A stretch of 64,000 bases of DNA, from contig JAOARQ010000024.1 of NCBI GenBank assembly GCA_025210455.1, positions 1-64,000 on the forward strand. The letters are read 5' to 3'. Source of the stretch: Pelagimonas sp. GTDB taxonomy: Bacteria; Pseudomonadota; Alphaproteobacteria; Rhodobacterales; Rhodobacteraceae. The position numbers and the translations under genes are program-made. Below, one piece after another: positions 4,341 through 4,846 of this stretch. Each line of letters starts with the position of its first letter. The first letter of the stretch is position 1. The notes below the pieces were generated by a model, which ran no database searches, was not told where the DNA came from, and was given only the letters and a program-made list of their open reading frames with translations.

Positions 4341-4506
4341 GGCTGGTTTCCGGACTTGGAAGGGGCATTTGCCCGATCATGGCACCTTCCCGGGATCCTC
4401 GTCCCAGTGGTTGCTTGCCATGTCTGACCTTCGTTACCGTTGCGGGGGCAGTGCCGGATTTTCACCGGCTTCCCAATTCTCCGCCCCTCAAAAAAGAAGC
4501 GGCACC
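4341..4506 (-). promoter_or_regulatory. Cobalamin riboswitch upstream of gbcAB
   Basis: Read on the minus strand, the segment has the conserved pieces in order: GGGAAGCCGGTG, the core CTGCCCCCGCAACGGTAA, the B12-box CCACTGGGACGAGGATCC, GGGAAGG, and a closing AAGTCCGGAAACCAGCC. This matches the known cobalamin riboswitch consensus. It sits about 130 bases before the GTG of gbcA with no convincing gene between, so it should repress gbcAB when cobalamin is plentiful. Confidence 0.92.
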
Positions 4507-4680
4507 TTACACTGGCAGAGTATCTGCGGTGCAGCATTTCTATGAATTATGAGCGACACATTTTGTAAAAAAAGCGCTGTCGGGCAGAATTTTCTTACAC
4601 ACACACGGAAAAATCTGACCGATGTCCTGCACAAAATCGTTGACGCAAAATTGCGTCTCTGCCAATCAGCGGATCAGTCC

Positions 4681-4846
4681 GGTTCCGTGGCCCGCCACGG
4701 AGGCAATAGGGAATGTAGTGCGGCGCCCCTGCGCCAAGTCTGCAACTGCCCCCGCAACTGTAAGCGGCGAGCAAGGCTGAACATGCCACTGGGATATCCC
4801 GGGAAGGCCAGCCAGATGCTGTGACCCGCAAGTCAGGAGACCTGCC
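4681..4846 (+). promoter_or_regulatory. Cobalamin riboswitch upstream of the cobalt transporter operon
   Basis: The plus strand shows CTGCCCCCGCAACTGTAAG, then GCCACTGGGATATCCCGGG, AAGGC, and the closing CGCAAGTCAGGAGACCTGCC. These are the core, B12 box and 3' closing strand of a cobalamin riboswitch. It ends about 150 bases before the first transporter gene. Cobalamin binding is expected to shut the operon off. Confidence 0.94.

Follow-up and report, generated by a model that had tools for sequence, protein, structure and literature searches.

What might a Rieske oxygenase have to do with vitamin B12? The question arises in a Pelagimonas sp. contig in which an oxygenase operon and a cobalt importer operon diverge from a short region, each behind its own cobalamin riboswitch. 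An Infernal/Rfam search of both strands of the window (the whole 64-kb stretch of DNA analysed) gave exactly two RF00174 matches over the gathering score (cmscan), both full length (model positions 1-189) and both clear of the threshold of 31.5 bits. The plus-strand aptamer, which precedes the cobalt-import operon, occupies 4663-4863 (124.4 bits, E = 8.6e-31) and is of the canonical ACTGT / CAGGAGACC type by its motifs, while the minus-strand aptamer, which precedes the Rieske operon, occupies 4324-4524 (121.4 bits, E = 6.2e-30) and carries the motifs of an ACGGT / CCGGAAACC subtype. The first-pass annotation had claimed a full cobalamin riboswitch on each strand, the pair pointing apart, and both points were confirmed. 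The span that it gave, 4341-4846, is in the right place but slightly shorter than the Rfam bounds of 4324-4863, and its spacing of about 175 bases has to be replaced by 138 bp between complete aptamers. If the two leaders both start in this 138-bp interval (4525-4662, bounded by the RF00174 matches), it has to contain both promoters; a sigma-70 consensus scan of the interval found no site, which is weak evidence for or against shared promoter DNA. Given the eight cobalamin riboswitches in the 4.5 Mb of the host genome (66 contigs), rough arithmetic puts the chance of a divergent pair so close at about 0.2%.

The plus-strand switch lies over a textbook, expected target. Its operon encodes a DUF4198 periplasmic protein of the importer (4996-5784, with an ORF that can start at 4957; PF10670, 169 bits), CbiM, the S component of the cobalt importer (5788-6399; NF004905, 282 bits, cut-off 173), a NikL-family nickel/cobalt ECF subunit (6396-6971; NF058648, 210 bits, cut-off 100), CbiQ (6971-7753; TIGR02454, 143.5 bits, cut-off 111.8) and a CbiO-like ATPase (7720-8409), all on the plus strand. 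CbiM and CbiQ of a cobalt ECF importer CbiMQO are over their cut-offs, and the CbiO-like protein, with 169 bits to TIGR01166, is below the cut-off of 211.8 and was assigned with the help of its position in the operon. At its other end, the window begins with the 3´ part of nrdE and with nrdF of a class Ib (B12-independent) ribonucleotide reductase (2-1459, plus strand; nrdF, NF007182, 590 bits, cut-off 471). nrdHI and a cobalamin riboswitch (C39:987-1178, minus strand) end contig C39, the nrdE barrel-domain fragment and nrdF begin contig C1, and this fragment is the only nrdE (barrel domain) in the genome, placing an assembly break inside nrdE. In Shimia marina, nrdFE and the same small PRA-PH gene are convergent with the Rieske operon, and the order nrdEF / PRA-PH / Rieske operon is shared. 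By exclusion and from this synteny, an nrdHIEF operon with its own cobalamin riboswitch probably adjoins the window, so that this locus probably has three riboswitches in about 8 kb.

The minus-strand operon encodes the alpha subunit of a Rieske non-heme iron oxygenase (2989-4212, GTG start; PF00848, PF00355) and its GbcB-like reductase partner (FAD, NAD, 2Fe-2S; 1907-2992; PF00970, PF00175, PF00111). The closest solved relatives of the oxygenase are PDB 3n0q (80.8% identity) and 3vca/4qup (68.6%), the latter of which we take to be the stachydrine (proline betaine) demethylase Stc2 of Sinorhizobium meliloti, the nearest relative with a known function. The structure and source organism of Stc2 are described in the accessible text of PMC10952381, from which we also take the meaning of a CxxC pair beside the iron and active site, a feature that the window protein shares. 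It has the group Vb motifs CRHRG and CPYHQW (Rieske CxH / CxxH) and ECYHC (CxxC pair), and each of the first two is found in 49/49 switch-bearing rows. It differs from Stc2 in that the nearest tree rows of Stc2 are switchless genes beside LysR, GlxA, TetR or old-yellow-enzyme genes. In architecture the pair also resembles the glycine betaine monooxygenase GbcAB of Pseudomonas and Chromohalobacter (PMC12478193, in the portion available); however, the oxygenase scored 508.1 bits with the GbcA model NF058607 and the reductase 358 bits with NF058606, each short of its curated cut-off (670 and 500, respectively), and all ten Rieske homologs scored against NF058607, switch-bearing and switchless alike, fell at 478-523 bits. 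The earlier description of the two operons as those of a Rieske demethylase and a metal importer is supported on both sides, but the gene name gbcA is not established. Given the score under the cut-off and the 68.6% identity to Stc2, the apt label is Stc2/GbcA-like betaine N-demethylase candidate (group Vb), with glycine or proline betaine as predicted substrate. The gene encodes the only full-length homolog in its genome; the next matches cover part of the protein at 30-34% identity. In the leader stretch that separates aptamer and start codon (4206-4323, minus strand), an alignment of 14 leaders revealed a conserved GC hairpin directly 5´ of a Shine-Dalgarno-like AGGAG, nearly identical in ten relatives and a candidate part of the expression platform; no covariation was detected in an alignment of 10 leaders, and no low folding z-score in the three leaders folded.

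metE, nrdAB and nrdDG are examples of riboswitch-controlled B12-independent isozymes. Such isozymes of B12-dependent enzymes are a known category of cobalamin-riboswitch target according to the available text of PMC3766115. The two operons of the window had been called unrelated-looking; they are not, since both kinds of target, cobalt importers and B12-independent enzymes such as the Rieske oxygenase probably is, are standard categories in that same text. The Rieske operon resembles the RF00174-controlled isozymes in aptamer family and apparent logic, and nrdHIEF or nrdAB with its own switch stands beside it in several genomes; it differs in that the target here is a predicted betaine demethylase and the aptamer a sequence subtype. 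The word "betaine" occurs nowhere in the main text of PMC3766115, supplementary regulon tables aside, and the isozyme category, as set out in the available part of that source, would gain a new kind of member: a betaine demethylase under an aptamer of recognisable subtype. In the open literature, which leaves subscription journals, regulon databases and supplements outside its scope, we found no paper linking a cobalamin riboswitch to gbcAB or Stc2; there, "GbcAB" and "riboswitch" co-occur only in PMC12478193, whose available text has "riboswitch" once, in the reference list. Given this scope, the priority of the linkage is not certain.

If the Rieske enzyme is an isozyme of this kind, a B12-dependent counterpart should be present. 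The host genome has 13 MttB-superfamily genes, one of them in the window (15533-17104, minus strand; PF06253, 710 bits). It also encodes an MtgC-like corrinoid protein, with a BHMT-like gene and DUF1638 next to it, and a B12-dependent NrdJ. B12-dependent counterparts of the MttB and MtgC-like kinds thus are found in the genome, but 235/248 genomes of the family have MttB, so its presence carries no weight alone and co-occurrence with MttB was dropped as proof. MttB is present in 21/21 switch-bearing genomes and absent from 4/28 switchless ones, and its median gene count is 4 versus 1 (Mann-Whitney, p = 4.5e-5, kinship ignored); MtgC-type proteins are equally common (20/21 versus 24/28). Ruegeria pomeroyi relies on cobalamin-dependent MtgBCD to demethylate betaine, and glycine betaine demethylation in roseobacters reportedly is carried out by a cobalamin-dependent enzyme shared with methionine synthesis (both from the accessible portion of PMC12478193), while MtpB is a proline betaine methyltransferase (PMC8604678). 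MtgBCD and MtpB would do the same betaine chemistry and have relatives in the host genome; they need a corrinoid and are the presumed counterpart of the Rieske enzyme, not the same enzyme.

The reading that we consider most likely, in which we have somewhat better than even confidence, is that the Rieske enzyme bypasses the corrinoid-dependent demethylation of betaines, using O2 and no B12, and is raised at low B12. When B12 is plentiful, the minus-strand aptamer would bind cobalamin and hold down expression of the Rieske operon, and the corrinoid-dependent MttB-superfamily protein and MtgC-like corrinoid protein would take methyl groups off betaines. When B12 is scarce, the switch would open, the O2- and NADH-dependent Rieske enzyme, which relies on iron, would do the same kind of demethylation without B12, and the plus-strand riboswitch would simultaneously raise cobalt import. 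The betaine in question could be proline, glycine or a hydroxyproline betaine, and the Rieske enzyme would substitute for the corrinoid route as nrdHIEF does for NrdJ. The BHMT-like protein of the host genome may be another B12-free betaine route, by analogy with the betaine demethylation without B12 reported for Bmt of Phaeobacter inhibens (PMC12366255, in the part available), and to that extent counts against the bypass.

The joint low-B12 response unit that the first-pass annotation proposed holds up as a common low-B12 logic, but not as a head-to-head pair conserved among loci. In the 50 family loci, 80 named loci and one genus mate checked, cbiKMLQO was next to the Rieske gene in just two places, the window and Rhodobacter sp. 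TJ_12 (L172); in the latter the arrangement is tandem, not divergent. Among the matches listed for 49 genomes, a further head-to-head cobalamin riboswitch pair is found in G092 (C25:158009- / 158393+), and Marivivens (L138) has one such pair; in both, the divergent partner of the Rieske operon is nrdHIEF. The idea of the head-to-head pair as a special device was dropped, since the divergent partner varies (cbi, nrdHIEF) and the majority of switch-bearing Rieske genes lack any divergent switch, and for the same reasons the pair is not the main point. The layout looks incidental; what is conserved is the riboswitch together with the Rieske operon. Head-to-head pairs away from any Rieske gene also were seen among the matches listed, in G002 (C4:94063-94824; 94063- / 94634+) and in G215 (C30:111552-112073; 111552- / 111877+), and the Rhodobacter sp. 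TJ_12 locus has four cobalamin riboswitches in about 8.3 kb (1828-10100), one over cbiKMLQO and a decayed one over the Rieske operon.

The linkage itself recurs widely. Among 248 genomes of the same family, 49 encode 51 Rieske homologs (E <= 1e-100), and the switch is immediately 5´ of the gene, on its strand, in 21/51 (20 clear, 1 degenerate): 19 of these are among the Rfam matches listed, that of G091 was recognised by a custom profile and the subtype pattern, and that of G238 (L068) is the degenerate copy (68.9 bits with the R1 model described below, under the Rfam threshold). In a scan of named genomes, which partly overlaps the family set (nine of the 80 loci are duplicates of family loci), 28 of the best 80 Rieske loci have the switch. 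With about 1-8 cobalamin riboswitches per typical family genome among the matches listed, chance linkage is negligible. The named switch-bearing taxa are Ruegeria, Shimia, Sulfitobacter, Phaeobacter sp., Roseibium, Marivivens, Hoeflea, Labrys, Mesorhizobium, Rhizobium leucaenae and Rhodospirillales. The same leader also occurs in plasmid-borne copies, on pGal_C110 of Phaeobacter gallaeciensis DSM 26640, the megaplasmid of Ruegeria sp. TM1040 and a plasmid of Cereibacter azotoformans; these records call the gene product an aromatic ring-hydroxylating dioxygenase and list no riboswitch. Roseibium aquae has two Rieske copies, one with the switch and one without, and so does G091. R1, a covariance model built from alignment A2, was run for missed switches over 81 loci (the switchless ones and the switch-having L068, L134, L160 and L172) and returned only known switches, decayed copies and one 19-bit trace; Rfam over ten of those loci, including four from Paracoccus with nrd beside the Rieske gene, gave a single cobalamin match (L134, 32.0 bits). 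The trace lies 5´ of a gammaproteobacterial Rieske gene (Granulosicoccus L145, 5804-5873) and is perhaps a remnant of horizontal transfer.

The Rieske-linked switches also have a sequence signature. In alignment with canonical switches they show CAACGGTAA for CAACTGTAA, AATTGGGAA for AAnAGGGAA and CCGGAAACCAGCC for CAGGAGACCTGCC, and, after removal of the nine named loci judged to be duplicates, ACGGT was present in 43/46 Rieske-linked switches and 0/18 others in the same loci. The subtype changes keep pairing, as the column pair 120-222 is G-C in every one of the 31 Rieske-linked rows of a 34-sequence alignment and U-A in its three remaining rows. Across the 43 pairs of this alignment, which partly consists of close relatives, 95.6% of cells are paired and 26/43 pairs have changed on both sides, a number reached in 0/500 shuffles and far above that of slid controls, showing covariation. 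A scan for the subtype pattern matched 23/248 family genomes, 19 of the matches being 5´ of a Rieske gene, and 5/385 genomes of the class, 4 of them 5´ of a Rieske gene (the window is in both sets). Of the five matches elsewhere, those of G044, G115, G141 and G138 follow a uvrD-like gene, that of G138 with a small ORF downstream, and that of G625 precedes a TonB receptor; these make the subtype strongly, not exclusively, tied to the Rieske gene. Judged by this sequence subtype, the Rieske-linked switches appear to be a distinct, previously unnamed cobalamin-riboswitch lineage of Alphaproteobacteria.

In a 126-protein tree (49 proteins with the switch, the same duplicates removed; midpoint root, many forks open), the switch label needs 16 changes versus about 39 when shuffled. 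The presence of the switch on several deeper branches and the subtype common to its copies suggest a single origin with repeated losses. A common subtype and many plausible losses also are what would be seen if the riboswitch had been captured once by a betaine demethylase and kept by descent with no B12-related benefit, but selection is the better account of pairing kept across orders and of a switch that many genera have retained, and the decayed copies (L134, L172 and G238) show that the switch decays when it is not needed; we regard this explanation as improbable, the least favoured of those considered here.

Gene neighbourhoods differ between the two groups of loci. Neighbours pointing to betaine catabolism or local regulation, namely a LysR, TetR or GlxA/GbdR-type regulator or a demethylating flavoprotein gene, were found within 5 kb in 3/46 switch-bearing versus 51/76 switchless loci (Fisher, p = 8e-12), with gene calls from a simple ORF/codon-position heuristic and with L174 (no Rieske ORF called) and L235, L236 and L238 (no gene table) left out; with relatedness controlled, the contrast was 4.4 versus 0.4 of 9 independent pairs and not significant (sign test, median p = 0.125). 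The window, with a GbdR-like regulator matched by profile at 8434-9423, is one of the three switch-bearing exceptions. B12-linked genes (nrd, metH, cbi) were near 12/46 switch-bearing versus 8/76 switchless Rieske genes (p = 0.04), among them riboswitch-controlled, B12-independent nrdHIEF in G092, G026, G118 and Marivivens and switch-controlled class Ia nrdAB in Hoeflea and Labrys.

B12-dependent MetH is encoded in or beside the switch-bearing Rieske operon of G118/L097, G191/L098, G092/L069 and Labrys okinawensis L185, and is split in G118, G191 and G092, with a separate homocysteine domain. A riboswitch over a B12-dependent enzyme is unexpected. These four loci challenge the reading of the Rieske enzyme as a bypass, since a pure bypass does not predict MetH; perhaps, and this is speculation, more apo-MetH is wanted at low B12, a time at which the Rieske enzyme makes corrinoid available. 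They would fit if formaldehyde from the Rieske reaction supplied methyl-THF to a methionine synthase short of B12, the Rieske enzyme and MetH being induced together, as might also be read from the MetH gene adjoining the switch-bearing Rieske gene in Cereibacter and the formate-THF ligase gene adjoining the Rieske gene in Roseibium. MetH lies within 5 kb in only 4/46 switch-bearing loci, however, and the window genome gave no match to the MetH-type PF02607, so that we think this one-carbon explanation unlikely. Genome-wide, MetH was found in 7/21 switch-bearing versus 15/28 switchless genomes (p = 0.25).

The neighbourhoods bear as well on a supply of precursors for B12 synthesis, in which Rieske demethylation of betaine would end in glycine (or proline) and glycine would lead through 5-aminolevulinate (ALA) to new B12. 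Betaine raises ALA and B12 yield in fermentation (PMC8123684, in the portion available), the cobalt import of the other window operon serves B12 synthesis, and the host genome has a riboswitch-controlled operon with cobG, cobN and further cob genes (by eye). Yet 43/46 switch-bearing loci have no genes for the later demethylation steps (of dimethylglycine, sarcosine or N-methylproline) within 5 kb, the neighbours of the Rieske operon are B12-independent ribonucleotide reductases and not cob genes, and proline betaine as substrate would yield no glycine. Precursor supply seems to us about as doubtful as the one-carbon explanation, and substitution for the corrinoid route at low B12 continues to be our preferred reading.

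If true, the bypass would join metE and nrd as a third kind of B12-independent substitute, link vitamin supply to how a major osmolyte is turned over, and account for a gene whose present annotation is no more than "aromatic ring-hydroxylating dioxygenase"; for the host, a marine-type bacterium, it would be a way to manage without the B12-dependent enzyme when the vitamin is scarce. More broadly, and more tentatively, at a little under even chances, the Rieske-linked switch lineage and its Stc2/GbcA-like demethylase might be an Alphaproteobacteria-wide B12 gauge set between a corrinoid (anaerobe-style) and an O2 betaine route, with B12 supply deciding the route of demethylation in ocean and soil bacteria.

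We also noted small proteins of about 100-146 aa, alike by eye and without a Pfam match, encoded directly 3´ of cobalamin riboswitches on contig C15 of the host genome (L010:7440-7748) and in G138 (L234:6444-6884), the switch of G138 being of the Rieske subtype. In the window itself, a cluster at 9519-19600 encodes a GntR-type regulator, a DapA-like protein, an aldehyde dehydrogenase, an FAD oxidase, two SDRs, the MttB methyltransferase, a GSA-aminomutase-like protein and a cis-3-hydroxyproline-dehydratase-like enzyme (346 bits, cut-off 500). From its predicted gene content, this cluster perhaps serves the catabolism of hydroxyproline or proline betaine, beginning with a corrinoid-dependent step.
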